64,000 nt of DNA. Origin: Paraflavitalea devenefica. GTDB lineage: Bacteria > Bacteroidota > Bacteroidia > Chitinophagales > Chitinophagaceae. Shown here one piece after another: positions 7,401 through 59,340 of the stretch (positions within the stretch are counted from its first letter, which is position 1; each line of letters opens with the position of its first letter). Position numbers and translations under genes: made by a program. The stretch is from contig NZ_JAARML010000004.1 in assembly GCF_011759375.1 (NCBI RefSeq), positions 186,001 to 250,000 of the forward strand, given 5' to 3'. A model generated the notes under the pieces. That model had not been told where the DNA came from. It did not search any database and worked only from the letters and a program-made list of their open reading frames with translations.

Positions 7401-7494
7401 TATTATTTATTATTCATTATTGATTATTGCTTGCATTGTATCATGCTATATTATTGGTTGCTGTGCTGCGGCCAATAATTAATAATCAATAATC
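7401..7494. repeat. 7-bp-period AT-rich repeat with complementary arms (locus A)
   Basis: The left arm has four heptads xATTATT (7401-7428, x = T, T, C, G). The right arm has three heptads AATAATT, AATAATC, AATAATC (7474-7494). ATTATTGATTATT (7416-7428) and AATAATCAATAAT (7481-7493) are perfect complements. It fills most of the gap between the PorE-like and PorP/SprF genes, and a sister element lies at 9512-9610. Confidence 0.8.
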
Positions 7495-7495
7495 G

Positions 7496-9499
7496 TTAAT
7501 TTTTTAACACCTTAAACTCTGTCCGCCTGTTCTGCTGCCTTCCTTCAGGGTTATCCTTGCCGTCCTCATGCTTATTAGGCGCCACAGGCATGGAAGCTCC
7601 GTAACCTTTGGACTGCAGGCGGTCCTTGTCAATTCCTTTACTGATCAGGTAAGCGACTACACTGGCGGCCCGCGCTTCGGACAGCTTCAGGTTATAGGCA
7701 TCTGAACCTTTATCATCGGTATGGGCGCCGATCTCAATCACCATGGCAGGATGATCATTCAACATGGACACCACTTTATCCAAAGCCGGATAAGAAACTT
7801 CTTTTAAGACCGACTTGTCAAAATCATAATACACATTGTCTATGACGATCACGGCTTCCACAGGAGGTGCCTCTTTAATGAGACACAAAGCAGGATTGAG
7901 CAGATTGTCAGCTTCTTCGTTGAGCGGAGCATTAAAATGCAAGGCACCGGTATCATAACCATGCAGGGTAGCGATCGCTTTCAACGGCTGGAATTCTTCC
8001 ATGGTAAAAGAATAGCTGCCATCGGCGCCGGTGGTTTTGGTAAATACTGTTGTATGGTTGATGGTATCCACAATTTGGATAACAGCGCCAGCCAGTGGCT
8101 CATTGTTATCACAGGTGACCACCAGCCCGTTTACCTGTTTCAATGGCTTGATCTTTCTGAGGCTGAACAATTCGAGGCAGCATTCAGCTGCACGGTCAGA
8201 GCTCAGGAATACATCTTCAAGGATATTCCGGGCGCTGCCACGGCTCACGAAATAGACATCGTCCTTTACAGAGTTGACCGGGTAACCAAAGTTCACCGGT
8301 GCGCCCAAACTGGCCAATGTGCCCTTGCTGTAAAAGAAATCATAACCACCCATGCCTATCCGGCCATTACCGGAAAAGACCAGTGTGCCGGAAGCAGCGT
8401 GATAATAAGGCGCCAGTTCATCATGGGCCGTATTGATCGCTTCACCCAGGTTAGTACTACTGACAGGCTTGCCTGTCGCATCCAACTCTGCATACCACAG
8501 ATCAAAACCACCATGACCACCGGGCTTATCGCTGGCATACAATAAATACTTTCCTCCTTCCATTACATAAGGCTGTTGCGCATTAAAGCCGGGTGTATTG
8601 ATCAGGCTGTCCAGCAATACCGGGCTGCTCCACCCATTGCCATTCCTGCTGCTGTGGTAAATGGCTGATTTCTTGACACCCTGCACAAGAGTCCAGCGGG
8701 TGATGAAGAGCGTATTCCCATCCGGTGTGATGCTTACCACCCCCTGGTGATAATCATTTGCCTGGGGCAGATCAGTTTTGGTAATAGTACCAATGGCACC
8801 TGCTGAATACAGCGCCTGGTAAAGGCGGTTGGTATATACCTGCTTTTTACCGCCTGCTGCACTATCAGCGCGGGTGGAAGTAAATAACAGGGTATTTTCA
8901 TTCAGCCAGGCCGGTGCATAATTGGCGCCTTTCGTATTCAGCGGCTCATCAGCTTTGGTAAGCGTATACAACTTCAGGTCCTTCTTAGCCAGTTGCTCCT
9001 GTACAAAACGAAGGCTTAATATTTCCTTGCGGGCAGCTTCACTATACGCATCATCTGTTTTATACATATCCAGGAAATGGGTGAAGGCCTTCTCTGATTC
9101 TTCATATTGCCCCAACGCCCGCAGGGAAGTAGCATAATGATACCCTGCCAGCGGGAAGGCGCTCTCCCCTTCCTCCAGTGCCTGTTTATAATAGCCGGCT
9201 GCTTTGGAAGGATAATTCAGCCGGCGGTAGCTTTCTGCCAGGTAGAACACTGCCTGCTGCCGGCTGCTCACTGCCACCTTTTTAGTCGTAACTGTTGTTT
9301 GTGCGGTATAGGGATTAAAGCCTTCTTTTTTAACAGCCGGTTTGGAAGTGTTCAGGTACTTCTCGTAATACTCCGCTGCAGAATTATAGTCAGCCTTTTT
9401 ATAATAGTTGTCCGCCGCCTTCAGATAGTCATAGGTAAACTGTGCTTTGGCAGCAATCATGCACAGAAGAACAGCAGATGTGAAATATATTTTTTTCAT
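7496..9499 (-). CDS. PorE-like OmpA-family protein (TPR, PD40 propeller, CRD, OmpA)
   Basis: Periplasmic/outer-membrane protein of about 667 residues with the domain order described for PorE of the type IX system. It has a signal peptide (MKKIYFTSAVLLCMIAAKAQ), TPR repeats (about 22-150, DYLKAADNYYKKADYNSAAEYYEKYL), and a PD40/WD40-like propeller (about 180-440, GGKYLLYASDKPGGHGGFDLW). A carboxypeptidase-regulatory-like domain (about 455-530) and a C-terminal OmpA domain (about 550-660, YYDFDKSVL ... HTDDKGSDAYNLKLSEARA) complete it. The Asp and Arg of the OmpA domain that normally hold diaminopimelate are present, so peptidoglycan anchoring is likely. ATG 9499 is preferred to a GTG two codons earlier. 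It is flanked by two PorP/SprF genes, which fits a cargo-specific T9SS attachment module. Confidence 0.88.
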   Translation of the reverse strand: MKKIYFTSAVLLCMIAAKAQFTYDYLKAADNYYKKADYNSAAEYYEKYLNTSKPAVKKEGFNPYTAQTTVTTKKVAVSSRQQAVFYLAESYRRLNYPSKAAGYYKQALEEGESAFPLAGYHYATSLRALGQYEESEKAFTHFLDMYKTDDAYSEAARKEILSLRFVQEQLAKKDLKLYTLTKADEPLNTKGANYAPAWLNENTLLFTSTRADSAAGGKKQVYTNRLYQALYSAGAIGTITKTDLPQANDYHQGVVSITPDGNTLFITRWTLVQGVKKSAIYHSSRNGNGWSSPVLLDSLINTPGFNAQQPYVMEGGKYLLYASDKPGGHGGFDLWYAELDATGKPVSSTNLGEAINTAHDELAPYYHAASGTLVFSGNGRIGMGGYDFFYSKGTLASLGAPVNFGYPVNSVKDDVYFVSRGSARNILEDVFLSSDRAAECCLELFSLRKIKPLKQVNGLVVTCDNNEPLAGAVIQIVDTINHTTVFTKTTGADGSYSFTMEEFQPLKAIATLHGYDTGALHFNAPLNEEADNLLNPALCLIKEAPPVEAVIVIDNVYYDFDKSVLKEVSYPALDKVVSMLNDHPAMVIEIGAHTDDKGSDAYNLKLSEARAASVVAYLISKGIDKDRLQSKGYGASMPVAPNKHEDGKDNPEGRQQNRRTEFKVLKN

Positions 9500-9511
9500 G
9501 GTCACTAATAT

Positions 9512-9610
9512 TATTATTAATTATTGATTACTAATTATTGCGTTATTGATTATTGCTGCGTAAAAAGCGATCGGCGCAGAGGAATAATCAATAATAAATA
9601 ATCAATAATC
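9512..9610. repeat. 7-bp-period AT-rich repeat with complementary arms (locus B)
   Basis: The left arm (9512-9554) is made of TATTATT, AATTATT, GATTACT, AATTATT, GCGTTATT and GATTATT, with one extra base. The right arm (9583-9610) is AATAATC, AATAATA, AATAATC, AATAATC. TTATTGATTATT (9543-9554) pairs perfectly with AATAATCAATAA (9583-9594), and GCTGCG/CGCAG adds to the stem. It uses the same heptamer family as locus A. Confidence 0.8.
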
Positions 9611-9611
9611 A

Positions 9612-10625
9612 CTATAACCTCGGACATACAAATTCCACTTCCGGTGTTTTTGCTGACCGTTTTCCGGTAAAGGACAGTGATATTTCAAAACTGTTGGAGC
9701 CACCGGCCATACGGCCCAGGTCGGACGTATTCACATCATAGCTCACTCCCAGCACCATATTTTTCCAGGTAAAGCCGGCATACGGCGATAAGGCATCTTT
9801 AAAACGGTAGTTAGCGCCCAGCATCACATTTACATCCAGTTCAGGAAATGCCTTTAACTGTGCATACGCGCCAACCATTTTTTCCTGGGCCTTTCCCTGG
9901 AACATATACAAAAGATTGGGTGTAAGGCTCAGCACATCCGTTAAGATCAGCCGCACACCGCCATGCATGGTATAGCGCACCGGGATACGTGCATTGCCGG
10001 TTTCACTGAACTTGTCATCGGGCCTGTTGATATGGGACACTGCAAAGCCACCGAAGATATTGGCCTTCTTACCGGGTTGTGCGTCGAAATAAAGAATACC
10101 GGCGCCTGCATCGAAGGAAACGGCCGATGTACGACTGAAGGATTCCATAGAGGTATTGCCGGGATTATAACCTGTTATAGGATTCCACTGATCGCCAAAA
10201 GTGAGCTTGGAAGGATTGAAACGCCGGCTAATGATGCCCAACTGCATACCCATCACAATGCGGTGCTGTTCATTGGCGCCAAACCGCACACCGGTATAAG
10301 CATAACTGCCATAAGCCGTGGTATAATTATAGCCGCCGTCGCCGGCTTTCTGATTCAGGATACTGGCGCCGAAATTAGAGTTCTTGCTGGTCGTAAACTC
10401 TGCCGACAGTCCCGGCGTGGAGAAAGGACTGCTGAGGTTTCCCCACTGCGTACGGTAAATACCTGATACCCGGTAATCGCCATCAAACGATCCGGTCAAA
10501 GCAGGATTCAGCCAGGCAGGATATACATAATACTGCGAAAAGTGAGGATCTGTCTGGGCGCTCATTTCATGGCCTGAACATACTGCTATCAGGAACAGCC
10601 ATAACATTTTTACAACACGTCTCAT
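9612..10625 (-). CDS. PorP/SprF-family type IX secretion outer membrane protein
   Basis: Second PorP/SprF barrel, about 337 residues. The open frame extends 49 codons upstream into the adhesin gene, but ATG 10625 (MRRVVKMLWLFLIAVC) gives a clean signal peptide ending at SAQ and avoids the overlap. After cleavage it reads TDPHFSQYYVYPAWLNPALTGSFDGDYRVSGIYRTQWGN, the family signature. It lies 35 bp after the stop of the PKD type B adhesin, so the two are probably co-translated partners. Family knowledge: PorP/SprF proteins serve adjacent CHU_C (type B) cargo. Confidence 0.92.
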   Translation of the reverse strand: MRRVVKMLWLFLIAVCSGHEMSAQTDPHFSQYYVYPAWLNPALTGSFDGDYRVSGIYRTQWGNLSSPFSTPGLSAEFTTSKNSNFGASILNQKAGDGGYNYTTAYGSYAYTGVRFGANEQHRIVMGMQLGIISRRFNPSKLTFGDQWNPITGYNPGNTSMESFSRTSAVSFDAGAGILYFDAQPGKKANIFGGFAVSHINRPDDKFSETGNARIPVRYTMHGGVRLILTDVLSLTPNLLYMFQGKAQEKMVGAYAQLKAFPELDVNVMLGANYRFKDALSPYAGFTWKNMVLGVSYDVNTSDLGRMAGGSNSFEISLSFTGKRSAKTPEVEFVCPRL

Positions 10626-10660
10626 ATCAGTTAAATTTTGGTATTGACATATATGGTTTA

Positions 10661-13600
10661 CTATCTCAAAATGGTTACCGGCCCTGTCATAGGCTGGAAT
10701 CCGTTCTTCAGATGAATGACATAATAATAGGTAGCTACCGGCAATGGTTTTCCGTTCATGGTCCCATTCCACGGATTGCTATAGCCACTGGCATAATGTA
10801 CCCGCTGCCCATACCGGTTAAATATTTCTACGGTGCAGCCTGGATAATCGGCCAGGTTCTCAATAAACCAGGTATCATTCACGCCATCACCATTGGGCGA
10901 GAAAGCATTGGGAACCTTAACAGGCCGCAGGATCTTTACCATTAGCTCATCCGTTGCCGTACAATTGCCTTCACCGGTAGCGGTTAAGCGGTAAGTACGG
11001 TCTTGCTGCGCCACCATGACAGGCCTCAAGGTGTTGGCATCTGAAAGATCAGTGGGCGGAGACCATTGGAAGCTCACTACTGTAGAGTCATTAACCTTGG
11101 GATTGAACCTGATCTGGGTACCCTGTGCCACCACAAATGGACCTCCCGCATCAATAACCGGTTGCAGGTATACGGTAGCTTCATGGGTAACCGGATCAGA
11201 AGCGCATCCCGCTTCATTGGTTACCTGCAGCTTCACGGCATATTTACCCGGCAGTGCATATTCATAACGGGGGTTGCGGCTGGTGGCCACACGGCCATCA
11301 CCAAACTCCCAGCTCCATCCCCTCACGGTACTGTTGGGCGCCGTGCTCAGATCGGTAAACCGGTGCTCATCACCCTGACACAGGGCTGCCGGTTCTATAC
11401 GGAAGTCCGCTACCGGTTTATTCAGGAACTTATCGGGTGTAAGCAGTTTGGCAGCCGCATCGGTACAACCATACACAGATATGGCCGTCAGGTTTACATT
11501 GTAAGTGTTACTGACTGCATACGTATGTTCGGGGTGAGTAGTTGATCCTGTACCACCATCGCCGAAGGTCCATTGATAATTCAAGGCCGCATTATCAGCA
11601 ATCGTGGTAAGGTTATTGAAGGTAGCTGTACCGCCGGGCACACATATTCCTGCAGGCAACTCAAAGTCGGCCACGGGTAAAGCATGTACCGCTACAGGAA
11701 GTGTAGCATTACCAGTACAACCATTGTTGCTGGTGGCGGTCAGCTTAACAGTATAGGTATTGTGGGCCGCCCATGACCTGGTGAAGGTATTCCCATTGGC
11801 GTAAGAAGCCGTATTGCCATCTCCAAAATCCCAGTCCCAGGTGGTAATACTTCCGGTGGGAATGGTAGAGTTATCATCAATGGTGGCTGCCTGGTTAAGA
11901 CAGATATCACTGGTTGCTGTAAATACTACATTGGGCTTGGGATGCACCACCATGGTATTCGGATAAGTTGCCGTACATCCACCGGTAGAAGTAAAGGTAT
12001 ACGTAATGGCATGTGTACCGGGGCCTGCTAATGCAGGGGTGAAGCCACCGGCGGCAGTGGTGCCCGGACCGCTGTATATGCCCGTACCGGTAACACCATT
12101 GGTAACGCTGGCTGTAGCGACGGAAATGATACCCGGTGCATTTTCACAGATAGCTGCGAGTGCGAAATAAGCCAGTTGAGGCGTAACCCCCAGGGTTGCC
12201 ACAACAGTGGTATCGTCTGTACAGCCGTTGGAGGATGTAGCAATAAGCGCAATATTGTAGGTACCATAGTCAGCATAATTATGTGTTGGGTTTTGTAAGG
12301 TGGAGGTATTGTTGCCCGGCGTAGAATTCGGATCGCCAAAATTCCAGGTATAACCTGTGATGGTTTCACCGGCAGAAGGGGTTGATATATTGGTAAACTG
12401 CGCCAGTCCATTCACCGGCAGACAAACGGCTGGCAACGTAAACTCAGCTTTGGGTTTGGCCATTACCACCATACTGTTGCTGGAATCTACCACCACACAA
12501 CCACCGGCAGAAGTAAACGTATAATAGATCTTATGCGTGCCGGCGCCGGCTATGGAAGGACTGAAATTGCCGGCAGCATCAGTGCCTTTACCGCTGTACA
12601 CACCGGTTCCGCCGACCCCGTTGGTAACACTGGCCGTAGCGATGGAAACAGTGCCGGTGGTGCTTTCACATACAGGCGGCAATGGCGGATAGGTTAACTG
12701 CGGCCGCACATTAAAGGCAGCCGGTACAGTAACGGTTTTGGTACAACCTTTGGCAGTAGTAGCGCTAAAGGTGATAGTATAAGTACCATAGCTGGTATAA
12801 GTATGCGCAGGATGCTGCAGGGTGGAAGTATTGGGGTTGGACGCCGTGGCATTGGGATCCCCAAAATTCCAAGCCCAGGTAGTGATAGGTTGCCCATCCG
12901 GCGTAGAGGATGTATCGGTAAACTGCGCCACGTCATTTGCAGGCAAACATCCCAGTGGGTAGGTAAAACCGGTATTGGGTTTGGCCAGTATGGTAATCAC
13001 CTTCCTGATGGTATCGCCGGAACAATTACCGGCACCGGGTACAGAAGCCAGGTGCTTCACGGTGTAGGTGCCGTAGTCAGGATAATTGATGGTTTGTGGC
13101 GTATTGGAAGTAACCGTTGCCGTATTCCCATTACCGAAATCCCAATACCAGGAGGTAACGCCGGCAGTAGTAGATGTATCTGTGAAGGTGATACTTCCTC
13201 CTTCGCAGATAGAATCCTGTGCAGCTACAATGCTGGCATTCGCTATAATACCGGCCAGTGTAATGGGTTTCGTAGTATCGCCCACACAACCCTCGGGGGT
13301 AATTACTTTCAGGTAAATATTATGGGGGCCTGTACTTTGAAAATAATGACGGGGGTTTTGCACACTGTCTGTACCGCCATCAGGATAGATCCAGCGCCAG
13401 CGGTCAATGGTATAACCATTACCGGAAGTATTTAAGGCCGCAAAGATCACCGTATCCAGCCGGCAGCCACCCTGTGTAAACGTGAAATCAGCCGTAGGTT
13501 TTGTCTTTACGATAATCTCCAGCGAAAACTCTTCTGTACGGGTACAAATATCCACCGTGGGTGATGTAGCGATCAAAGGCAGGTAATGAGTACCGGCCTG

Positions 13601-15379: not shown

Positions 15380-15400
15380 AGGATTAGCGTTTTAGGATCA

Positions 15401-17461: not shown

Positions 17462-17507
17462 ACTAATCCTTTTGGTGTTATGGTTAACTTATTCATCAAA
17501 TAAACCA

Positions 17508-17539: not shown

Positions 17540-17549
17540 CAGTCTTATT

Positions 17550-41104: not shown

Positions 41105-41668
41105 ATGTCCAACAGAGTATTGTCAATTGGCAGCCCGTTCCCTGCCTTCAAAAAGAAAGCAGTAGTATCTATCGAAAAAGGAAAAGAGTTTACAGAATTA
41201 ACCAATGAAAGCGCCAACGGACAATGGACCGTCATGTTCTGGTGGCCAAAGGATTTTACCTTTGTATGTCCTACAGAGATCGCTGAATTCAACAAGAAAC
41301 ACAGCGAATTTACAGATCGCGACACCGTGCTGATCGGCGCCTCTACCGACTCAGAGTTTGTACATGCTGCCTGGAGAAGGGATCATGCCGACCTGCGCGA
41401 CCTGAAGTTCCCCATGCTGGCCGACACATCCAAATCACTGGCAGAAGAGCTGGGTATCCTGGACAATGAAGAAAAGATCGCTTACCGCGCTACTTTCATT
41501 ATTGACCCGCAGGGTATCGTTCGCTGGGTAAGTGTTTATGACCTCAACGTAGGCCGCAGCGTACAGGAAGTACTTCGTGTACTGGATGCCTTACAAACAG
41601 ATGAATTATGCCCCTGCAACTGGAATAAAGGACAGGAAACCCTGACCGCCCAGTTGAACATGAACTAA
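41105..41668 (+). CDS. ahpC: Alkyl hydroperoxide reductase C (peroxiredoxin)
   Basis: Cytosolic 2-Cys peroxiredoxin of 187 residues that reduces H2O2, organic hydroperoxides and peroxynitrite. ATG 41105 (MSNRVLSIGSPFP) is chosen because the 30 codons before it contain the promoter. The peroxidatic Cys55 lies in WWPKDFTFVCPTE and the resolving cysteines in DELCPCNW (Cys169, Cys171). The CxCNW tail and the FWWPKDF block are of the actinobacterial-type AhpC that is recycled by AhpD rather than AhpF. The next gene is ahpD, which supports this. An OxyR-type site lies upstream. Confidence 0.96.
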   Translation: MSNRVLSIGSPFPAFKKKAVVSIEKGKEFTELTNESANGQWTVMFWWPKDFTFVCPTEIAEFNKKHSEFTDRDTVLIGASTDSEFVHAAWRRDHADLRDLKFPMLADTSKSLAEELGILDNEEKIAYRATFIIDPQGIVRWVSVYDLNVGRSVQEVLRVLDALQTDELCPCNWNKGQETLTAQLNMN

Positions 41669-41670
41669 AA

Positions 41671-41737
41671 TCCGAGGTCTGAAGGCTGAAGTCAGATACC
41701 GGACTTCAGACCTCAGACTTCAGACTTCAGACTTCAA
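41671..41737. repeat. 7-bp-period repeat with complementary arms between ahpC and ahpD (locus C)
   Basis: The left arm is TCCGAGG, TCTGAAG, GCTGAAG, TCAGATA (41671-41698). The right arm is ACTTCAG, ACCTCAG, ACTTCAG, ACTTCAG, ACTTCAA (41703-41737). The arms are complementary (CTGAAGTC with GACTTCAG), so the transcript can fold between the two coding regions. Confidence 0.8.
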
Positions 41738-41746
41738 ATTATTACT

Positions 41747-42396: not shown

Positions 42397-42425
42397 CATT
42401 TATAAGGCCGGTTTTCGGTAAAAGC

Positions 42426-42466
42426 TATAGAGCTCTTATAGAGCTGCTATAGAGCAGTTATAGAGC
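42426..42466. repeat. four 11-bp-period direct repeats TATAGAGC
   Basis: TATAGAGC at 42426, 42437, 42448 and 42459, exactly 11 bp apart, with variable three-base spacers TCT, TGC and AGT. It lies between the ahpD terminator and the stop of the convergent gene at 42479. Confidence 0.75.
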
Positions 42467-42478
42467 TTATATAGTGGG

Positions 42479-45990: not shown

Positions 45991-46031
45991 TAATGAATGC
46001 AAAATAAAGGCTCCCCGTTATCAATGAATAC

Positions 46032-50600: not shown

Positions 50601-51102
50601 CAACTACCGAAACCCCGGGCAATCCTTCCCCTTTCTCATTGGTTACTTTTCCCGTTATTATTTTAAAAGGTATTTCATGGGTAGCCTCCGGTCTATCCAT
50701 GGATCCTTCCTCATAAAAAGCAATGTTTACACCCACACCATCGCCCTTACGCATCAGCACCACCTGGGTGCCGGATACCTGGTAACAAATATTCAGGGGC
50801 TGGAGTAATCCATCCAGCACCTCGCCCAGGCGGCGGTCACGGGCTACAACAGATACTTTTTGACGGGTTGGAATACGCTGGGCGCTGTAGACGAACTTGA
50901 TCCCGGCGAGCTTACTGATCTCACCCAGGACAATTTTTACTTCCTTCTGCTCGGCAATAAGATTGATCTTTTTGTCCAATACCTCCTGCCCGTTGGTGGG
51001 GTTGGCATATATGACTACCTGGAGTGTGGTAATCATCAATAATGGCAGCAGTCCTATTCTCATAAACCCGTAAATTAACTGGTAAACGAGCTGTTTTTTC
51101 AT
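47644..51102 (-). CDS. SusC/RagA TonB-linked receptor with STN signalling domain
   Basis: 1152 residues from ATG 51102. Signal peptide, STN domain (about 43-112, KKINLIAEQKEVKIVLGEIS), carboxypeptidase-regulatory-like domain (about 148-225, GKVTNEKGEGLPGVSVVVKG), the linker VIIVGYGTQRRSS, a plug with LQGRVAGLTVTNNGEPG, VIDGFPTG and VEVLKDASAAAIYGSRATNG, then the barrel to AARSFQFGVQVGF. The STN domain matches the upstream sigma/FecR pair, forming the classic order sigma, FecR, SusC, SusD. The ligand-responsive circuit is established for this family; the ligand is unknown. Confidence 0.96.
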   Translation of the reverse strand: MKKQLVYQLIYGFMRIGLLPLLMITTLQVVIYANPTNGQEVLDKKINLIAEQKEVKIVLGEISKLAGIKFVYSAQRIPTRQKVSVVARDRRLGEVLDGLLQPLNICYQVSGTQVVLMRKGDGVGVNIAFYEEGSMDRPEATHEIPFKIITGKVTNEKGEGLPGVSVVVKGTAKGTSTNLEGTFSINADVGETLLFSMVGYKSFSVVVGQENEVAVTLQAEMINMNEVIIVGYGTQRRSSLTGAIASVSGKTIAELPVASVESALQGRVAGLTVTNNGEPGTTPIVRIRGISSISFASDPLYVIDGFPTGNLSNFNSRDIESVEVLKDASAAAIYGSRATNGVILITTKKGRRDGKLRVNLDSYIGTQSAWKQIDLLNTAQYLEYERALNGAAGIGRPPRLEAANFNQPIYDGTTQTYAQTNTDWQDAYFKNGIITQHDLSLGGGNNVSRFFASAGYFKQDGIARGVNYERGNFRINSDHAISKVFTFGENLFISYSQQRYDNTSGNRTRLVNVIRNLPYLPVYDPTTLGGYRNAENSVDGADPTNPIEDAELLGDATNKTVKVLGTAFLEINFTSWLKFRSTFGVDYVNLFQHQFSPIFNDKGRNAAVATIRDMRNSSTTTLFTEQLTFDKTFGEHHINAVGVFEVQSTKSSTENAFGNQNSNAIEVLRGATNVSYVSTRSENFLQSMVGRVNYEYAGKYLLSAAIRRDGLSLWAPGKKYANFPSASVGWRIDQEQFMRTAPYISELKVRAGYGVTGLNAVAALNNDYPWQVTVFANGATYPFNNVNSTGNASYYNALGNADLEWEKTKQLNIGLDLGLLNNRITLSAEYFTRKTDNLILNVPTPPSFGFNGVGVLANVASMRNNGLEFQAGYNQTQGEFTWNITGNISFIRNKVLSLNTETATIDQGGDQDFGGGTAITRTKAGQAIQSYYGYIVTGIFQTADEVTKNPTQAPGTAPGDLKFADLDGDEKITDADRTFLGSYLPKFSYALNYGAKYKNFDASLFLQGVQGNKIFNAARIISEGMARLFGSGTAVLRAWTPSNTNTNIPRAVSGDPNQNVRPSNRWIEDGSYLRLKNIIVGYTIPNSVLQSVTKGAISSFRVYISSQNLLTITGYDGWDPEIGSKNTTLTNGIDYGQYPAARSFQFGVQVGF

Positions 51103-51228
51103 ATTTTTGCAGTGTTTGGTTAAAGCAAATCGGTTTAATCAAAACAGGTCCCCGCACGCATTCAGTGGCTGTGGGGCTAAGAATCGGGGCTGATATTGTT
51201 CGCAGCAATACCGGCCCTTTTTATTTTG

Positions 51229-51256
51229 AGCTATTAGCTGTTAGCCTTTAGCTGTT
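51229..51256. repeat. 7-bp-period repeat between fecR and susC (locus D)
   Basis: AGCTATT, AGCTGTT, AGCCTTT, AGCTGTT: four heptads without a break, in the 165-bp gap. No complementary arm was found nearby. Confidence 0.7.
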
Positions 51257-51267
51257 AGTGTAAACAT

Positions 51268-52377
51268 CTATTGACATCCATTGGATTGGATCACCACCTG
51301 TCCGTCAATCACTTCATACGAAGCGCCGATGGCGCTGCATATCAGGTCCAGCTTGTGGTAAAAAGTTTCGTTCCTCAGATCGGCCGTCACCGTACATTTC
51401 TCAAACAGCTCACTATCGTACACAATACTGATGCCATAGGCCTTACTCAGTTCATTGAATACACCGATAAGACCGGCTTCCTCATATTCCATCTTCTGCT
51501 CCTTAACGCGGGGTATTATCAGCAGCGGATCATCCAGCAATACTTTCTGGAATTTCTGCGCTGTTTTTTCATACACCAGCTGCTGGTTGGGCGTTAAGAT
51601 CACCTCGCCGGGTTTATGATCAGTAGCACTGCGGCGGGTATTGGTAACGGCCTGTGAATACACAGTGACCTTACCGGTACGCACAATAACCTGTATGGTA
51701 GTATCTTTTTCAAAGGAGCGTACGGTAAAGCTGGTGCCCAATACTTTGGTCACGATCTCATTGGCAAATACCCGGAAAGGGCGGTCAGGGTTTTTGGTTA
51801 CTTCAAAGAACGCTTCACCCGACAAATACACATCACGGGTAGCCGAGCTGTCGAAGTGATTGGCATACCCTACCCGGCTTCCCGGCGCCAGGGAAATGGC
51901 ACTTCCATCAGGCAATGCTATAGTAATGGGTTTATCAGAGGTATTTACATTCTCTATGAGCTGACGGGAGGCTGTCATTTTTTCCCAGGTAAAGGATGCT
52001 GCGGCAGTGCCCCTGCCGGAGAAAAAATACAAGCCACCTGTTACACAAGCCACTAACACGGCAGCCGCTACTGTATACCAGGTACGCCACTTTACCCGGT
52101 TTACGGTTCTCACCGGGGCTTCTGCAGGTTGCTGACGGATGGTTTGCAATAAGCGCGCTGTTTCCTGCTCTATTTCCGGCTCCGTAAGCACCGGCGGGGC
52201 GATGTATACAGATTCCAGTATGCTCCGCGCCTCCGCTACCAGCAGGTGTTTATCAGGATTCCTGGTAAGCCAGGCATGCCAGGCAGCTTCATCTTCCGGA
52301 CGCCGTTCATACACCCAGCGTATAAAGTCCTCATCCATAACGAAGTCCGTAATATCGAACAAGCGATAATCTTTCAT
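51268..52377 (-). CDS. FecR-family anti-sigma factor / signal transducer
   Basis: 369 residues. The N-terminal cytoplasmic part (1-105) contains EDFIRWVYERRPEDEAAWHAWLTRNPDK. A membrane helix follows (about 107-124, WYTVAAAVLVACVTGGLYFF). The periplasmic FecR domain (about 150-255) has IALPDGSAISLAPGSRVGYA, GEAFFEVTKNPDRPF and VLGTSFTVRSF. The C-terminal STN-contacting domain (about 300-369) ends ASYEVIDGQVVIQSNGCQ. It sits between its sigma factor (75 bp upstream) and the STN-bearing SusC. All parts expected for function are present. Confidence 0.95.
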   Translation of the reverse strand: MKDYRLFDITDFVMDEDFIRWVYERRPEDEAAWHAWLTRNPDKHLLVAEARSILESVYIAPPVLTEPEIEQETARLLQTIRQQPAEAPVRTVNRVKWRTWYTVAAAVLVACVTGGLYFFSGRGTAAASFTWEKMTASRQLIENVNTSDKPITIALPDGSAISLAPGSRVGYANHFDSSATRDVYLSGEAFFEVTKNPDRPFRVFANEIVTKVLGTSFTVRSFEKDTTIQVIVRTGKVTVYSQAVTNTRRSATDHKPGEVILTPNQQLVYEKTAQKFQKVLLDDPLLIIPRVKEQKMEYEEAGLIGVFNELSKAYGISIVYDSELFEKCTVTADLRNETFYHKLDLICSAIGASYEVIDGQVVIQSNGCQ

Positions 52378-52451
52378 GCCTGGAGGTTGTTGTAATAAGA
52401 AGTTCCGCGGATGGAGAAAATCTACTGGGAAAATGGAAAGTTTTTTTGGAA

Positions 52452-53027
52452 CTATTTCGTCAGGTACTCTGCGTGCCAGAGGCCATGCAGCTTTTGTAAG
52501 GCTTCGTGTAAGAGGTTGTATACTGATTGGCGGCTGATGTTCATGAGATCAGCGATCTGTCCATGGTCAAGACGTTGATAGAATTTCAGGTAGATGACCT
52601 CATGCTGCCGTTTGGAGAGTTGCTGCAGGATGTTACGGAGAGCCGCCGCCTTTTCCTCGGATACCTGTTTTTCAATGATGAAACGCTCCACGGAAAACTC
52701 CTGGTAGAAATCATAGCTCTCCTGCCCGTCAAGGGTATCCGTCTTATACACTTTCCGGTGCAACGATTTGAGTACCTTATTTTTAGCGGCCCGTAGAAGA
52801 TAGTACCTCAGAGAAAGTATGGGTGCGGCAGTGTCCCTTCGCTGCCAGAGGCTGATAAAGACTTCCTGTATGCAATCCTTGATCAGTCCCTCATCTTTTG
52901 TAAAGCGGGAAGCGTAGCTATACAGGTCTGTATAGTACTTCTTCATCAGCGCGGCAAGAGCCTGCTCGTCGCTGCATTGCAAACGTTGCAGCCAGTCTTG
53001 GTCTGCTTGTGCATCATTCTCAGACAT
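52452..53027 (-). CDS. ECF RNA polymerase sigma factor (FecI-like)
   Basis: About 191 residues. ATG 53027 (MSENDAQADQDWLQRL) is preferred to a TTG two codons earlier. Region 2 has FTKDEGLIKDCIQEVFISLWQRRD and region 4 has LSKRQHEVIYLKFYQRLDHGQIADLMNISRQSVYNLLHEA. First gene of the sigma/FecR/SusC/SusD/FG-GAP locus. No exact TAnnTTTG was found upstream, so its own promoter is not assigned. Confidence 0.94.
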   Translation of the reverse strand: MSENDAQADQDWLQRLQCSDEQALAALMKKYYTDLYSYASRFTKDEGLIKDCIQEVFISLWQRRDTAAPILSLRYYLLRAAKNKVLKSLHRKVYKTDTLDGQESYDFYQEFSVERFIIEKQVSEEKAAALRNILQQLSKRQHEVIYLKFYQRLDHGQIADLMNISRQSVYNLLHEALQKLHGLWHAEYLTK

Positions 53028-53267
53028 TAGCAATCACCTGGTTAGTGAGGACGTGGTATACAATATTAACACATAAACCATATACGAAATCCAGTCTATA
53101 GAATAACACTTATCAACTGCTGTTGCAAAAACAAGTTTTGTATGTCTGGCAGACAAGCAGTCTTTCATTAGGAAGCACGGTTTATTATATAATGACATTC
53201 GCATCCGGGCGCCTGCTCGACACATGTTAAAAAAACACCGATAAATGCTAAAAATGTATCAGTAGAA

Positions 53268-53349
53268 GGCGAGTGGCGAGTAGTAAATGGCGAGTGGACG
53301 TTTGCTTCGCTGGTCAAAGGCCCACTTGCCACTCGCCACTTACCACTAG
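53268..53349. repeat. 7-bp-period repeat with complementary arms (locus E)
   Basis: The left arm is GGCGAGT, GGCGAGT, AGTAAAT, GGCGAGT (53268-53295). The right arm is CCACTTG, CCACTCG, CCACTTA, CCACTAG (53322-53349). TGGCGAGTGG (53288-53297) is the exact complement of CCACTCGCCA (53329-53338). Confidence 0.8.
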
Positions 53350-53361
53350 CTTTTCTAACAA

Positions 53362-53402
53362 CAAAAAAGGGTGAACTGCCATTGGAAGGCGATCCACCCT
53401 TT
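53362..53402 (-). terminator. intrinsic terminator of the arginine decarboxylase gene
   Basis: AAAGGGTG (53366-53373) pairs with CACCCTTT (53395-53402), with an inner GCC/GGC stem. On the minus strand TTTTTTGTTG follows. It starts 20 bp after the stop codon. Confidence 0.8.
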
Positions 53403-53421
53403 GTATTGAAAACGTTTGATT

Positions 53422-54822
53422 CTATTTTACATAGCCCAGGATCTTGAGCATGCTTTGAGCAGTTTGCTCTTTGGCATAGACCCAATCCACCAGCTTACCA
53501 TTTTTATCGTGTCCCACGATAACGTGTTTGGGCGAAGGGATGAGGCAGTGCTTGATACCGCCGTAGCCGCTGATCTGGTCCTGGTAGGCGCCGGTATGGA
53601 AGAACCCTAAATACAAAGGTTCTCCGTTATTTATTTTGGGCAGGAACACTTCATTAACGTGCTCTTCAGAATCGTAATAATCGTGGCTGTCGCAGGTTAT
53701 ACCGCCCAGCACTACCCGCTGGTATTCCTGGTCCCATTTATTAATAGGCAGCATGAGGAACTTCTCTCCGATACCCCAGGTATCCGGTAGCGTGGTGATA
53801 AAAGAAGAATCGATCATATACCAGGTTTCCCGGTCATTCTGCATCTTCTGGCCAATCACACTGTAAATATGCGCCATGCTCTCTCCTACCGTATAACTGC
53901 CAAACTCTGTAAAGATGTGCGGCATCGGTACGTTGTTCTTCTTACAGGCTTTCTTGATATTGCCAATGATCTCGTTGATCATGAACTGGTAATCATATTC
54001 AAAGCCCAGGGAATGCTTGATAGGGAAACCACCGCCGATATTGATGGAGTCCAGTTCGGGGCAGATCTTCTTCAGTTGGCAGTACAGGTTGATGACTTTA
54101 TTGAGCTCACTCCAGTAGTAGATATCATCTTTAATACCCTTGTTGAGGAAGATGTGGAGCATCTTTAACTGGAACCGGTCTTCATTGCCTTCAATCTTGT
54201 CTACATAGAACTCCAGTACGTCCCTGGCACGGAAACCCAGGCGGGAAGTATAGAACGGGAAAGTAGGTTCTTCTTCTGCAGCTATCCGTATACCCAGTTT
54301 GAAAGGTACCTTAACCGACTTTTTATATTGTTGCAGCTCATCCTTATTATCCAGGATGGGTACTACATTCTTAAACCCTGTATTCAATAAGCTGGCTATA
54401 CGGCTGGTATAGGTCTTTTGCTTATAACCATTACAGATGATGAACGTGTCCTTGTTGATCTTTTTCTTCTCATACAGCTTCTTAATGATCTCTATGTCGT
54501 AAGCGTAAGAGGTTTCCAGGTGAATATCGTGCTTCAGGGCTTCTTCCACCACGAACGAGAAATGAGAACTCTTGGTACAATAACAATAATTGTACTCTCC
54601 CTCGTACCGGTGCTTTTTGATGGCATTGGCAAACATCTTCTTGGCCTTTCTGATCTGCATGCCGATCTTGGGCAGGTAGGTCAGCTTCATGGGCGTACCA
54701 TACTTATCAATGAGCCCCTTCACATCAAGACCATTAAAAAAAAGATTGTTGTCTTTTGTTTCAAACCCTTCCTGTGGAAAGTTAAAGGTTTGCGTCACCA
54801 GGTCGGTGTACGAGTTGTTCAT
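53422..54822 (-). CDS. speA: Arginine decarboxylase, Bacteroidota type (PLP, alanine-racemase fold)
   Basis: 466 residues from ATG 54822. PLP-dependent fold III decarboxylase of the arginine/ornithine/diaminopimelate group. The Schiff-base lysine is in YCYCTKSSHFSFV, the phosphate-binding glycines in SINIGGGFPIKHS, and the C-terminal catalytic region has CDSHDYYDSEEHV and HTGAYQDQISGYGG. Related proteins in Bacteroidota are annotated as biosynthetic arginine decarboxylase and make agmatine for polyamine synthesis. It is shorter than the enterobacterial SpeA (about 630). Specificity for arginine over another basic substrate rests on family resemblance. It has its own promoter and terminator and looks like a single-gene unit. 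Confidence 0.85.
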   Translation of the reverse strand: MNNSYTDLVTQTFNFPQEGFETKDNNLFFNGLDVKGLIDKYGTPMKLTYLPKIGMQIRKAKKMFANAIKKHRYEGEYNYCYCTKSSHFSFVVEEALKHDIHLETSYAYDIEIIKKLYEKKKINKDTFIICNGYKQKTYTSRIASLLNTGFKNVVPILDNKDELQQYKKSVKVPFKLGIRIAAEEEPTFPFYTSRLGFRARDVLEFYVDKIEGNEDRFQLKMLHIFLNKGIKDDIYYWSELNKVINLYCQLKKICPELDSINIGGGFPIKHSLGFEYDYQFMINEIIGNIKKACKKNNVPMPHIFTEFGSYTVGESMAHIYSVIGQKMQNDRETWYMIDSSFITTLPDTWGIGEKFLMLPINKWDQEYQRVVLGGITCDSHDYYDSEEHVNEVFLPKINNGEPLYLGFFHTGAYQDQISGYGGIKHCLIPSPKHVIVGHDKNGKLVDWVYAKEQTAQSMLKILGYVK

Positions 54823-54892
54823 GAACTGATTCTGGCTGATGGCAGTGAATTTAAAAAGTTAGCAAAAAAACACACCGTTCAAAAAAAGTATA

Positions 54893-54922
54893 CAAAAGTA
54901 ATAGTTTGACTGATTTTACAAA
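54893..54922 (-). promoter_or_regulatory. promoter of the arginine decarboxylase gene
   Basis: On the minus strand TTTG (54922-54919), 18 bases, then TACTTTTG (54900-54893). This is a near-perfect Bacteroidota housekeeping promoter and the best in the window, about 70 bp before the start codon. Confidence 0.75.
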
Positions 54923-54963
54923 CAAAAACATTACCGGTTTGGAAGTTGGGACCTCGAACAGCC

Positions 54964-54997
54964 AAAAAAAAGCCGGGTGTTGTTGAACACCCGGCTT
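54964..54997 (-). terminator. intrinsic terminator of rpmI-rplT
   Basis: AAGCCGGGTGTT (54970-54981) pairs perfectly with AACACCCGGCTT (54986-54997), loop GTTG. On the minus strand a run of seven T follows. It lies 26 bp after the rplT stop. Confidence 0.92.
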
Positions 54998-55022
54998 GTA
55001 TGTTACGTAAACGTTAAGCGGC

Positions 55023-55367
55023 TTATTTTACAGAAGCAACCAACAGCTTGAAGGTCTCCGGCTCATTCATGGCCAGATCGGCCAGTACTTTACGGTCGAG
55101 GGTGATCCCTTTCTCGTTCAGCTTGTGAATGAAAACAGAGTAAGTAAGGCCTTCCGGACGAACGGCGGCGTTGATACGGGCGATCCACAGTGCGCGGTAT
55201 TCCCTTTTCTTCAGCTTACGGCCTACATATCTGTATTGCAGACCTTTTTCCAATACGTTTTTGGCAACGGTATATACGTTTTTACGTTTGCCATAAAAGC
55301 CCTTGGCTTGTTTTAAAATCCTTTTGCGGCGTGCCCTGCTTGCTACAGCATTTACTGAACGTGGCAT
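55023..55367 (-). CDS. rplT: 50S ribosomal protein L20
   Basis: 114 residues, the usual length. The canonical start [33 protein letters not shown], the central [27 protein letters not shown] and the end [18 protein letters not shown] are plain. L20 binds 23S rRNA early in large-subunit assembly. It is 48 bp downstream of rpmI, and the two form an operon. Confidence 0.99.
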
Positions 55368-55415
55368 ATCTTAATAAGTTTGAAGTTAAAGTTGATAGTT
55401 TAAACGGCCGGGTTC

Positions 55416-55613
55416 CTATTTCAGCCTCAGGAGACGTTTTACGAAATCCAGGTTGGCTTTGTGCACGATACCATCTTTACCCAGGGCACGTTTACGCTTG
55501 TTGGACTTTTTGGTCAGAATGTGGCGTTTGAAAGACTTCTGGTGAGTGATTTTACCGGTGCCGGTTACTTTGAACCTTTTCTTGGCACTGGAGTTTGTTT
55601 TAACTTTAGGCAT
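55416..55613 (-). CDS. rpmI: 50S ribosomal protein L35
   Basis: 65 residues, very basic. [44 protein letters not shown] and a final KRLLRLK are typical of L35. Usually infC precedes rpmI; here the next 270 bp upstream are non-coding and then a plus-strand gene begins, so infC is elsewhere. The promoter box lies about 119 bp upstream. Confidence 0.98.
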
Positions 55614-55731
55614 TTTTACACCTTTAATTGTTACACCCTGCTGGCGCCCCCGATCCTCCGGGGAACTTTTTGGGCCTTGTGGGCAATATAGCTTCTACTC
55701 TCTCAAAAGAATAAAAACTGAAAATGGAGCG

Positions 55732-55739
55732 CAAAGGTA
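55732..55739 (-). promoter_or_regulatory. -7 box (TACCTTTG) of the rpmI-rplT promoter
   Basis: Exact TAnnTTTG on the minus strand followed by C; the -33 box is weak. It leaves a leader of about 110 bases with a CCCCGGAGGATCGGGG hairpin (about 55651-55666), which could hold the L20 autoregulatory site (inference). Confidence 0.5.
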
Positions 55740-55885
55740 CGGAAAGATGTGCTCTTAAAGAAGGAAAACAGGCAAAACTACCCAACTTTTCCCTATTTAT
55801 TGATTCTCAGCCCTGAAGCCTCCTACTTTGAGACTTCTGGAATATATTGAAACCCTTATCTTTAACCCTCATATTTCCTGCACAC

Positions 55886-58800
55886 ATGAAAAATACACTG
55901 CGGTTCCTTGCTTTTGCTATTCTCCTGCTCCATCTGTTTAGTTGTAACAAAACCCGCTCCGGCAAACCCCGGATCCTGGTTTTCTCCAAAACCACCGGTT
56001 ACCGGCATGCTTCCATCCCCCAGGGCGTTACTGCCATTATGAAACTGGGCCAGGAAAATGGTTTTGAGGTAGACACGACTGAAGATGCTGATCTTTTTAC
56101 GGAAGACTCCCTGGCCAAGTATGCTGCTGTGGTGTTCCTCCATACCACCGGCGACCTGCTGAACCAATACCAGGAAGCCGATTTTGAACGCTATATCCAG
56201 TCTGGCGGCGGCTACGCAGGCATCCATGCTGCTGCCGACGCGGAGTACGACTGGGGCTGGTATGGCCGGCTGACCGGCGCTTATTTTGAGAGCCATCCCG
56301 AACAACAGGTGGCTAAGCTGCTGGTAAAAGACTCCACGAATATTGCCACCAAACACCTCCCCCACGTATGGGAAAGGAAAGATGAGTGGTACAATTTCAA
56401 AAACCTGAACCCTGATGTGCATGTACTGCTCACGATAGATGAAAAGAGCTACCAGGGTGGTAAAAACGGCGATCATCATCCCATGGCCTGGTACCATGAC
56501 TTTGATGGCGGCCGCTCTTTTTATACCGAACTGGGCCATACAGACGAGTCCTTCGTGGAAGAGAATTTCCTCAAGCATCTCCTGGGCGGTATTCAATATG
56601 CCATCGGCAAGAATTATAAGCTGGATTACTCCAAAGCCAAATCACTCCGCACCCCGGATGAAGACCGGTTTACCAAAACGGTACTGGCGCAGGGTGAGTT
56701 CTTTGAGCCCACCGAAATGACCATCCTCCCCAACCTGGATATATTGATTGCCCAACGGCGCGGCGAACTGATGCTGTATAAGAACAAGGATTCTGGTTCC
56801 CATATAAAACAGGTTGGGTTCCTCAATGTATACCACAAGGCTGAGGTGCCTAATGTGAATGCCGAAGAAGGCTTCATGGGCTTACAGGCGGACCCTAATT
56901 TTGAAAAGAACCACTATATCTACGTATTCTATAGTCCCAAAGACACATCGGTCAACCGTCTCTCCCGTTTCAAATTTGAAAATGATACGCTCGATATGAA
57001 GTCGGAGCACATCATTCTCCAGTTCTATTCCCAACGGAATATATGCTGCCATACCGGCGGCTCTATCGCATTCGGACGGGAAGGCAATGAACTGTTCGTA
57101 TCTACCGGCGACAACTCTACTCCCTTTGATGAGCCCAAACAGCCCTACGTGAATCATGGGTTTGGCCCATTGGACGATCGCGCCGGACATGAGCAATACG
57201 ATGCCCGCCGCTCTTCCTCCAATACCAACGACCTGCGGGGCAAGATCCTGCGGATAAAGCTGAAAGAAGACGGCTCGTATGAAATACCGGAAGGCAACCT
57301 GTTTGCCAAAGGAACGCCCAACACCAAACCGGAGATCTATGTAATGGGCAACCGCAACCCTTACCGGATATCCGTAGACAAGAAAAATAATTACCTGTAC
57401 TGGGGAGAAGTAGGTCCGGATGCCAATAACGACAGCCTGGACACACGCGGTCCCCGTGGTTATGATGAAGTGAACCAAGCCCGCAAAGCCGGTTATTTCG
57501 GCTGGCCATTGTTTGTAGGCAATAATTACCCTTACAGGGCTTATGATTATGCCACCGGCAGTTCCGGACAGCCTTATGATCCTGCCAAACCGGTGAATAA
57601 TTCACGCAATAATACCGGTCTCCAGGAACTGCCGCCTGCTCAGCCTGCCTTTATCTGGTATCCTTATGGCAACTCCAAAGATTTTCCACAGGTAGGCACC
57701 GGCGGCCGTAATGCGATGGCAGGCCCTGCTTATTATACAGACATGTTCCCGGAAGCTACCCGCCTGCCTGCGTATTATGACAATAAGGTATTTGTGTATG
57801 ACTGGATACGCGGATGGATAAAGGCCGTAACGCTGAAACCCAATGGCGACTTTGATAAGATGGAACCTTTCATGGAGCATACGAAGCTCAACTCGATGAT
57901 CGATTTTGAGGTAGGCCCCGATGGCCGGTTGTATATGCTGGAATATGGTACCGGCTGGTTCAGCAAGAATGCTGATGCCGGCATTTCGCGTGTTGATTAC
58001 AATGGCGGCAACAGGGCGCCTAAGATAGACAGCCTGCAGGTAAATAAAGTATCCGGCGCGCTGCCTTTGGCACTTACCGCTACCGTGAAAGCGACAGACC
58101 CGGAGAAAGATAAGCTGATCTATACCTGGCATATCGGCGACTCTACAAAAGAAACGACTGAGCCGAAGCTGGAATATACGATCACTAAACCCGGTGACTA
58201 TGCTGTTTCAGTAGAAGTAAGTGATGACAAGCAGGCAACTGCCAAAAGCAGCGTGGAGAATGTGTATGCCGGCAATGAAGCCCCTTCAGTAAGTATCACC
58301 CTGCCGGGCAACAAGAGCTTCTATTTCCCCGGCAAACCTATACAGTATAGTGTTACCATTGCAGACAAGGATGATACTGCCCAGGCAAAAGACCTGAGTA
58401 ACCTGATCGTTTCGGCCGACTACGTGGAAGGCAGCGACCGGGCGGGCGCCTCCCAGGGACACCAGGTGCTTACAGAAGCTACGATGGGCAAGAACCTGAT
58501 GTTATCGCTGGATTGTAAAACCTGTCACAAGACAGATGAGAAGTCGATCGGTCCTTCTTTCCTGGATGTAGCCAAACGGTATGAAAAAGACCCCAACGCG
58601 GTGTCTTACCTGGTAGACAAGATCATTAAAGGTGGCGGAGGCGTATGGGGCGAAGTGGCGATGGCTGCGCATCCCAATCTGAAGGAAGCCGACGCCCGCC
58701 AGATCGTTACCTGGATACAGTCGCTCACGGCTACGACACAAAACAAAAAGTCCCTGCCTGCTACCGGCACTGTACAGCCTACACTGGGCAAACCGGAAAA

Positions 58801-59308
58801 AGATAATGGCGTTTTGTACCTCTCTGCCAGCTATACCGACAAAGGAGGTAATAATATCAAGCCGCTCTCGGGTAATGATGTGGTGACCCTGCGCAGTCCC
58901 AAAGTCACTTTCCGGCGAGTAAAGAAGATGGATAAGTACACGGGAGAAAATATGAATGGCACGCGCCTGATGATCGCGCCCAAAGCAGCAGGCTGGTTTG
59001 TATTGGAAAATATTGACCTTACCGGCATTACCGGCGCCACCCTCCAGTTGGTGTGGTCAAAGCCCGCTCAATCGGGTTACAGTTTTGAGCTGCGTCTTGA
59101 CGCACCCGACGGCCAGCAACTGGGCTCCTTCACCTTGCCCGGCGGCGGACAGGCAGCCAATGAGAAAACACCATTTATCAGCAAAGCCCTGACCTCCCCC
59201 TTTGCAGCAGTAACAGATGGTAAAAAGCATAACCTGTACATTGTAAGCAAACCAACCGATGCCGCTGAGCCCAACCAGGTAGCTGTGCAGTGGATACAGT
59301 TTAAATAA
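55886..59308 (+). CDS. Multidomain lipoprotein: ThuA, sorbosone-dehydrogenase-like propeller, PKD, cytochrome c, C-terminal CBM-like
   Basis: About 1140 residues. ATG 55886 (MKNTLRFLAFAILLLHLFSC) gives a lipoprotein signal; the earlier ATG lacks one. Domains: ThuA-like (about 25-245, ILVFSKTTGYRHASIPQG ... GYAGIHAAADAEYDW); a PQQ-type glucose/sorbosone dehydrogenase propeller (about 265-695, EGFMGLQADPNFEKNHYIYVFY, GSIAFGREGNELFVSTGDN, LRGKILRI); PKD (about 710-795); a cytochrome c domain with one haem site CKTCH (about 870-960); and a C-terminal beta-sandwich (about 1005-1140) like a carbohydrate-binding module. This fusion is seen in several Bacteroidota as a putative glycoside-oxidising or trehalose-utilisation protein. 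The haem suggests that electrons from sugar oxidation pass to a carrier. Substrate is not known. Confidence 0.9.
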   Translation: MKNTLRFLAFAILLLHLFSCNKTRSGKPRILVFSKTTGYRHASIPQGVTAIMKLGQENGFEVDTTEDADLFTEDSLAKYAAVVFLHTTGDLLNQYQEADFERYIQSGGGYAGIHAAADAEYDWGWYGRLTGAYFESHPEQQVAKLLVKDSTNIATKHLPHVWERKDEWYNFKNLNPDVHVLLTIDEKSYQGGKNGDHHPMAWYHDFDGGRSFYTELGHTDESFVEENFLKHLLGGIQYAIGKNYKLDYSKAKSLRTPDEDRFTKTVLAQGEFFEPTEMTILPNLDILIAQRRGELMLYKNKDSGSHIKQVGFLNVYHKAEVPNVNAEEGFMGLQADPNFEKNHYIYVFYSPKDTSVNRLSRFKFENDTLDMKSEHIILQFYSQRNICCHTGGSIAFGREGNELFVSTGDNSTPFDEPKQPYVNHGFGPLDDRAGHEQYDARRSSSNTNDLRGKILRIKLKEDGSYEIPEGNLFAKGTPNTKPEIYVMGNRNPYRISVDKKNNYLYWGEVGPDANNDSLDTRGPRGYDEVNQARKAGYFGWPLFVGNNYPYRAYDYATGSSGQPYDPAKPVNNSRNNTGLQELPPAQPAFIWYPYGNSKDFPQVGTGGRNAMAGPAYYTDMFPEATRLPAYYDNKVFVYDWIRGWIKAVTLKPNGDFDKMEPFMEHTKLNSMIDFEVGPDGRLYMLEYGTGWFSKNADAGISRVDYNGGNRAPKIDSLQVNKVSGALPLALTATVKATDPEKDKLIYTWHIGDSTKETTEPKLEYTITKPGDYAVSVEVSDDKQATAKSSVENVYAGNEAPSVSITLPGNKSFYFPGKPIQYSVTIADKDDTAQAKDLSNLIVSADYVEGSDRAGASQGHQVLTEATMGKNLMLSLDCKTCHKTDEKSIGPSFLDVAKRYEKDPNAVSYLVDKIIKGGGGVWGEVAMAAHPNLKEADARQIVTWIQSLTATTQNKKSLPATGTVQPTLGKPEKDNGVLYLSASYTDKGGNNIKPLSGNDVVTLRSPKVTFRRVKKMDKYTGENMNGTRLMIAPKAAGWFVLENIDLTGITGATLQLVWSKPAQSGYSFELRLDAPDGQQLGSFTLPGGGQAANEKTPFISKALTSPFAAVTDGKKHNLYIVSKPTDAAEPNQVAVQWIQFK

Positions 59309-59312
59309 TTTC

Positions 59313-59340
59313 GGGTTTAGGGTTTAGGGTTCCGGGTTGC
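59313..59340. repeat. 7-bp-period repeat (locus F)
   Basis: GGGTTTA, GGGTTTA, GGGTTCC, GGGTTGC, unbroken, five bases after the stop of the ThuA protein. It looks telomere-like, but it is internal, short and one of several heptad arrays in this window. Confidence 0.7.

Follow-up and report, generated by a model that had tools for sequence, protein, structure and literature searches.

The 64,000-nucleotide stretch of the Paraflavitalea devenefica genome analysed here (contig NZ_JAARML010000004.1, positions 186,001 to 250,000; hereafter the window) carries short tandem arrays with a 7-base period in the gaps between its genes. An initial annotation had listed such heptads at seven places, and direct reading confirmed all of them, most as imperfect repeats. 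On the minus strand, a weak AAAAAGT pair (6339..6354) lies 17 bp behind the stop codon of a PorP/SprF gene (6372-7394), and two-arm hairpins of AATAATC/GATTATT heptads lie directly behind the stops of an OmpA-like gene (7496-9505; hairpin 7395..7494) and of another PorP/SprF gene (9612-10772; hairpin 9509..9611). On the plus strand, a CTGAAGT/ACTTCAG heptad hairpin (41671..41737) fills most of the gap after an AhpC/TSA gene ending at 41668, and a single-arm GGGTTTA array (59309..59338) begins at the stop codon of the gene ending at 59308. A single-arm AGCTGTT array (51229..51258, minus strand) is found 9 bp behind the stop of a FecR gene (51268-52377). The GGCGAGT/CCACTCG hairpin (53266..53349, minus strand) carries the anchor motif CGAAGCAAACG (53299..53309, minus strand) in its loop and is set 72 bp behind the stop of a decarboxylase gene, with a terminator-like stem recognised by eye in between. 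Except for this last hairpin, every one of the seven places lies at most 17 bp from a stop codon, a regularity absent from the initial annotation.

RNA folding agreed with the proposal that four of the six longer arrays form hairpins. The four two-arm arrays fold far better than shuffles (z -4.0, -6.0, -4.7, and -6.0 in order of position), while the arrays at 51229-51258 (z 0.65) and 59309-59338 (z 0.15) and the weak pair at 6339 (z -1.0) fold no better than shuffles. No described class had been named for these repeats, and Rfam likewise gave 0 matches in the window at the gathering threshold.

The strength of the 7-base period was measured by counting array hits, defined as gap stretches in which, at a given lag, 12 or more of 14 consecutive positions match. 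In the window alone (27 gaps, 5.1 kb), lag 7 and lag 14 each gave 6 stretches, where 50 dinucleotide shuffles gave 0.02 for either lag; no stretch appeared at lags 4-6, 8-10, 12, or 13, and one each at lags 3 and 11. The count was extended to 1.25 Mb (14%) of the 8.73-Mb, 21-contig genome, namely positions 1-450000 of contig C4 and 1-800000 of contig C2. Gene ends were taken from a home-made hexamer-model caller, on which all gap and stop distances rest, giving 692 gaps (132.5 kb) and 1.12 Mb of called coding DNA; gaps below 25 or above 3000 bp, gaps at sequence ends, G/C ties, and arm pairs below the score limits were excluded from the counts. Lag 7 yielded 56 intergenic hits where 1.0 was expected, and 0-2 in each of 20 further shuffles. 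The excess over the neighbouring lags 5, 6, 8, and 9 (2, 3, 12, and 5 hits), on whose absence the initial annotation would have given up its claim, is therefore present in this part of the genome. Lags 14 and 21 gave 42 and 22 hits, lags 11, 22, and 33 gave 25, 18, and 13, and all remaining lags from 2 to 40 gave 0-7, with about 1 or less in shuffles. The heptads are mostly intergenic (56 hits in 0.13 Mb of gaps versus 11 in 1.12 Mb of coding DNA), and 72 of the 692 gaps, about one in ten, bear an array. The E. coli control, a single 50-kb stretch with 22 gaps that is too small for much inference, contained no array at lags 4-22.

The claim that the period is always 7 did not hold. In 80 loci from Chitinophagaceae and closely related bacteria (212 kb of gap sequence, called with the same and possibly ill-fitting gene model; hereafter the family loci), lags 7, 14, and 21 gave 67, 54, and 46 hits, and lags 8, 16, and 24 gave 40, 27, and 18. 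Some of the octamer arrays have two arms and the same build as the heptad hairpins, as seen in other Chitinophagaceae or Bacteroidetes at loci L104 (4079-4291), L143 (7421-7512), and L150 (982-1248). A near-perfect heptad array of unusual length, 138 nt of CTTCTGC units, was also observed in Niastella soli (L115, 9537-10000). The period-11 arrays of P. devenefica are enriched in divergent gaps (10/136 versus 11/556 in the others) and by eye often consist of a constant core with about four free bases. We treated them as a class separate from the heptad arrays; they may be regulator-binding arrays. One of them lies in the window at 42424-42474, where TATAGAGC is followed by three free bases, and 11-mer arrays with different words recur.

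The positions of the heptad arrays relative to genes follow the pattern of the window. In the sample, an array is present in 50 of the 465 gaps between tandem genes, in 17 of the 91 between convergent genes, and in 5 of the 136 between divergent genes (p 0.0027). G003, the nearest sister genome, agrees (23/177 versus 2/38 in divergent gaps), and for the two genomes together the counts are 89/733 in non-divergent and 7/174 in divergent gaps (p 0.0009). Arrays in tandem gaps lie at a median of 11 bp from the stop and 54.5 bp from the next start, with 38 of 50 arrays closer to the stop; outside one array-rich stretch of C4 (345-430 kb), 25 of 34 are closer to the stop, at a median of 17.5 bp. In convergent gaps, 15 of 17 arrays start within 9 bp of the nearer of the two stops, part of which is expected since these gaps are often short, and the three convergent arrays of G003 all lie 2-6 bp from a stop. 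Some arrays take in the stop codon itself. Such positions could arise from ordinary heptanucleotide simple repeats, grown by neutral slippage in 7-nt steps and left behind stops because coding and promoter DNA do not tolerate them. This explanation, which we regard as possible but rather unlikely, is supported by the rarity of arrays in divergent gaps and by two reports (PMC4679880, PMC4692102). In their consulted parts, units of 7 nt are said to outnumber all other repeats of 5-11 nt in most bacterial genomes, and slippage related to polymerase contacts is proposed; PMC4679880 takes both points from a survey.

Two features of the arms are not predicted by plain slippage. A complementary partner arm (score at least 14, G-U pairs allowed, within 110 bp) accompanies 28 of the 72 longest arrays, compared with 14 of 216 mismatched-gap controls. 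Furthermore, the arms have a polarity. In 52 arm pairs (27 from P. devenefica, 7 from G003, and 18 from the family loci), the 5' arm is richer in G than in C in 42 of the 48 untied cases (p 1e-7), and in 31 of 37 outside gene clusters. The tendency is the same for single arrays that lie no more than 40 nt from a stop when they are read in the direction of the gene, with G-rich to C-rich ratios of 41:12 in P. devenefica and 12:0 in G003. A general strand polarity of stems was considered as the source of the G-rich first arm and rejected; by the same measure, stems of array-free gaps show no such bias (16:26 for stems with a T run and 57:52 for stems without), so the polarity is not a genome-wide rule. 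The two arms have a core word in common, not copied sequence. No covariation between them was found over the 52 pairs, in which permuted units pair equally well (51 z-scores, mean z 0.08, 57% above 0). Hairpin-templated copying, one of the processes put forward in the initial annotation for making 7-bp units, and selection for exact arm pairing are both unsupported by this result. A role of the arrays as terminator replacements was also tried and set aside, as a strict scan for separate terminator-like stems showed no clear difference between gaps with arrays (4 of 66) and those without (47 of 490). T runs at the array stems are inconsistent by eye.

The view that the arrays share a period and no sequence stood in one part. 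The words do vary by locus, with 40 consensus heptamers among 86 arrays in P. devenefica and 17 among 31 in G003 (7 groups in each after one-mismatch chaining). With the family loci included, 113 consensus heptamers occur in 202 arrays, 32 of them at least twice and 81 once. The 40 heptamers in 86 arrays are in line with plain slippage. The other part fell, since a common anchor and identical blocks occur at unlinked loci. The 12-mer anchor TCGAAGCAAACG has 39 exact copies in the P. devenefica genome, against 0 for its reversed control. Its 14-mer extension (TA + TCGAAGCAAACG) has 20 copies in P. devenefica and 34 in G003, and in a search of 145 other family genomes, a set apart from the remaining three genomes of the genus set, it occurs once each in 10 and is absent from 135. 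Among 41 distinct anchor sites (30 of the 39 in P. devenefica and 11 in G003), a lag-7 array follows the anchor in 23 and precedes it in 4. Lags 5, 6, 8, 9, 10, and 11 after the anchor gave 0, 0, 0, 0, 1, and 0 arrays, and lag 5 before it gave 6. In our own reading of the sites, the anchor-following arrays have at least 9 different heptamers. Of the 72 array gaps, 10 contain the exact 8-mer CGAAGCAA, as do 10 of the 620 gaps without an array. At four G003 loci (L224, L226, L232, and L238), the anchor was often observed to be the tail of a longer repeat, in variants of GTCATTTCGAACG...GAGAAATCTGCTATCGAAGCAAACG.

Recurring heptamers are likewise found at unlinked loci, and 11 unlinked gap pairs have identical stretches of at least 22 nt. 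Ten of these are heptad blocks of up to about 29 nt, and the longest, of about 34 nt, is a stem resembling a repetitive extragenic palindromic (REP) sequence. Within the genus, the order of unit variants in array pairs lies above permutation (139, 94, and 44 pairs; mean z 0.25, 0.31, and 0.45; the pairs are not independent), and in other pairs, between genera, it does not (210 pairs, mean z 0.06). The recurring heptamers, the identical blocks of about 22-34 nt, and the one anchor before many heptamers speak against the suggestion that no spreading element is involved. Plain slippage does not predict a fixed anchor before many heptamers or identical blocks at unlinked loci.

The internal structure of the arrays bears on how they grow. 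In 56 arrays of at least 35 nt, identity between positions is 0.776 at a distance of 7, 0.801 at 14, 0.727 at 21, and 0.696 at 28, figures that are weakened by arrays changing phase. The fall with distance suits local duplication or slippage with some two-unit steps, and it counts in favour of plain slippage as well. A process tied to 7-bp units is supported, and its slippage form is favoured by this fall, although identity is highest at 14. In 141 arrays, the variants (449 transitions and 444 transversions) gather in two of the seven columns (0.74 versus 0.61 simulated), as if a 5-nt core were kept, which would be expected if a protein or RNA read every seventh base and selection maintained the period. 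We consider such a reader very improbable. Duplication of variant units concentrates variants in the same way, the 202 arrays have 113 consensus heptamers, different heptamers occupy orthologous gaps, and octamer arrays of the same build exist.

The orthologous gaps were compared in a genus set of five genomes, comprising P. devenefica, P. pollutisoli, the Niastella metagenome-assembled genome (MAG) BIN41, G003, and Paraflavitalea sp. CAU 1676. The relationships were judged from the decarboxylase beside the 53266..53349 hairpin, for which the best matches among named genomes are Paraflavitalea sp. CAU 1676 (96%), Niastella MAG BIN41 (96%), others (95%), and P. pollutisoli (94%), in a match list that possibly omits records near the window's own; G003 reaches 98%. 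Reciprocal best pairs between P. devenefica and G003 (130 pairs, median 80% identity) defined 67 syntenic gaps, of which 3 hold arrays in both genomes, 9 in P. devenefica only, and 7 in G003 only. All three shared gaps have different heptamers in the two genomes, and a fourth exchange was seen by eye at C4 351043, with the G003 side below threshold. Several sister-gap comparisons were made by eye, among them that of the gap at 41669-41746, which holds the CTGAAGT hairpin in P. devenefica, a GTGAAAC/GTGAGAA hairpin in G003, a CTGAAGT-like hairpin below threshold in BIN41, and plain GAGGTGAG stems in CAU 1676 and P. pollutisoli, one of these two with a clear T run. The array of the type at 53266..53349 is absent from the same gap of all four sisters. 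Pure turnover is opposed by the gap at 51103-51267, in which P. devenefica and BIN41 both have AGCTATT-type arrays, that of BIN41 being by eye a two-arm form below threshold.

Array density differs sharply between the species. Arrays were found in 26 of 216 sampled gaps in P. devenefica (450 kb), 25 of 215 in G003 (400 kb), and 3 of 60 in BIN41 (100 kb), and in none of 88 in P. pollutisoli (160 kb) or 76 in CAU 1676 (135 kb). The two sisters with 0 arrays in 164 gaps, against 51/431 in P. devenefica and G003 together (p 4e-8), speak against plain slippage. This patchiness, the presence and absence of an array in the same gap of sisters, the recurring heptamers, and the anchor would suit a family of miniature mobile elements that have inverted heptads at their ends and depend on a transposase acting in trans. 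We judge this explanation unlikely. Loops are mostly unshared, and a by-eye look at the decarboxylase gap recognised no target-site duplication. The Y1 transposase, or REP-associated tyrosine transposase (RAYT), was rejected as the mover of the arrays. Y1 genes are present in all five species, including those with array-free samples, and their flanks are not special, since 12 Y1_Tnp loci from the five genomes (3.2-3.3 kb each) include 4 with an array and 3 with the anchor, none as paired flanks. As a separate observation, the window has its own Y1 (RAYT-like) gene at 4534-5091, with a nearly identical palindromic block of about 100 bp on each side, starting near 4338 and near 5120. A third such block lies at about 5715, inside the open reading frame 5697-6281, and the whole of 4338-5796 has a REPtron-like layout.

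Several known repeat classes resemble the arrays in part. Three heptamers occur in Calothrix, where they are called short tandemly repeated repetitive (STRR) sequences, and REP sequences are placed in tandem or convergent rather than divergent gaps. The consulted parts of the literature describe TAACTGA repeats in Beggiatoaceae, cyanobacteria, and five Bacteroidetes, with one heptamer dominant and placed before start codons in Beggiatoaceae, and a range of heptamers in Microcystis, where 8 of 24 mapped TAACTGA sets lie between stop codons (PMC4679880). They also describe GGGAATC repeats in Xanthomonas, with inverted pairs noted, GGGGA(T/C)T in Nostoc (PMC4692102), and other heptamers in gaps of Gramella and Elizabethkingia (PMC4679880, PMC4692102); repeats of 4-11 nt are reported there as normal or weakly over-represented across phyla (PMC4060949). 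The present arrays are like heptanucleotide simple sequence repeats in having 7-nt tandem units above chance, largely intergenic and varying in length and sequence between relatives. They differ from the Beggiatoaceae repeats in having no dominating heptamer and in lying mostly behind stops, and from the known heptanucleotide repeats in the G-rich first arm, the common anchor, and the different heptamers in the same gap of sisters. In the consulted part of another report, GTAG REPs often provide the stop codon (PMC3733652). Like REPs and bacterial interspersed mosaic elements, the arrays are extragenic hairpins at gene ends, patchy in relatives and favouring tandem and convergent over divergent gaps, although marginally so in the wider family. 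Unlike them, they have no conserved palindrome of 20-40 nt, their arms are 7-nt arrays that differ by locus, few of their loops are shared, and no RAYT link appeared at the 12 Y1_Tnp loci. They resemble intrinsic terminators in forming a stem behind the stop, and the gap at 41669-41746 has a plain stem in two sisters (by eye); some gaps, however, hold a separate terminator-like stem beside the array, and such stems lack the G-rich-first bias.

Collectively, we tentatively favour, at close to an even chance, that the arrays are REP-like 3'-end hairpin elements whose arms grew by slippage and which owe part of their spread to copying within the genus. In this view, about 3-5 heptads stand close behind a stop codon. 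Some of these arrays continue into a loop, which in certain cases contains the CGAAGCAA/TTGCTTCG motif, and then into a complementary array, and the transcript could thereby end in a stem. The units may originate from slippage-type tandem duplication in 7-8-nt steps, and short blocks would be copied between loci of one genome. Since any unit in one arm can pair approximately with any unit in the opposite arm, the stems would tolerate slippage, and the arrays could grow, shrink, and change while the stem persists. Such stems would probably act as 3'-end hairpins do elsewhere, by shielding the end of the mRNA or setting its limit, or they may simply be tolerated there.

Several observations weigh against REP-like hairpin elements of this kind. 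Most of the longest arrays (44/72) lack a clear partner arm, a minority of arrays contain the exact anchor motif, and the loops proper are mostly unshared, with an unlinked match in 2 of 12. When flanks are included, 36 of 125 non-array pieces match elsewhere versus 11 of 150 control pieces, and on inspection by eye most of the matching pieces are second arms that had been missed or repeats of another kind. The higher identity at lag 14 than at lag 7 is unlike plain one-unit slippage. Tandem arrays are closer to the stop in only 12 of 20 cases in G003 and 24 of 39 in the family loci, where 9 of 19 convergent arrays lie within 9 bp of a stop, the avoidance of divergent gaps is marginal (58/851 versus 6/190, p 0.065), and the polarity of single arrays near stops is weak (18:13). 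Conserved array position between P. devenefica and G003 is not above chance (3 shared gaps versus 1.8 expected, p 0.25). Furthermore, the counts are not independent because 17 of the 72 array gaps come from positions 345-430 kb of C4, a stretch made up mostly of similar genes in tandem.

A bolder reading is that a dedicated lineage-specific process writes hairpins of 7- or 8-nt words at gene 3' ends, G-rich arm first and beside the anchor, that these are rewritten over short evolutionary times, and that some species lack the factor. We hold this to be quite improbable. The spacing of 7 bases is genuine. The arrays have the appearance of a REP-like repeat that changes fast and are not proof of a new machine. 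The heptanucleotide excess and the slippage idea are already published in the consulted parts of the literature, and the stop anchoring with arm polarity, the anchor, and the heptamer exchange were not found described in the literature searched, which included few subscription journals. The consulted parts of the literature approach the question why 7-nt repeats are common in bacteria chiefly by way of single heptamers. In this genus, one genome has many heptamers, sister species are array-rich or, as sampled, array-free, and orthologous gaps carry different words; these features make slippage, copying, and selection on 3'-end stems distinguishable.

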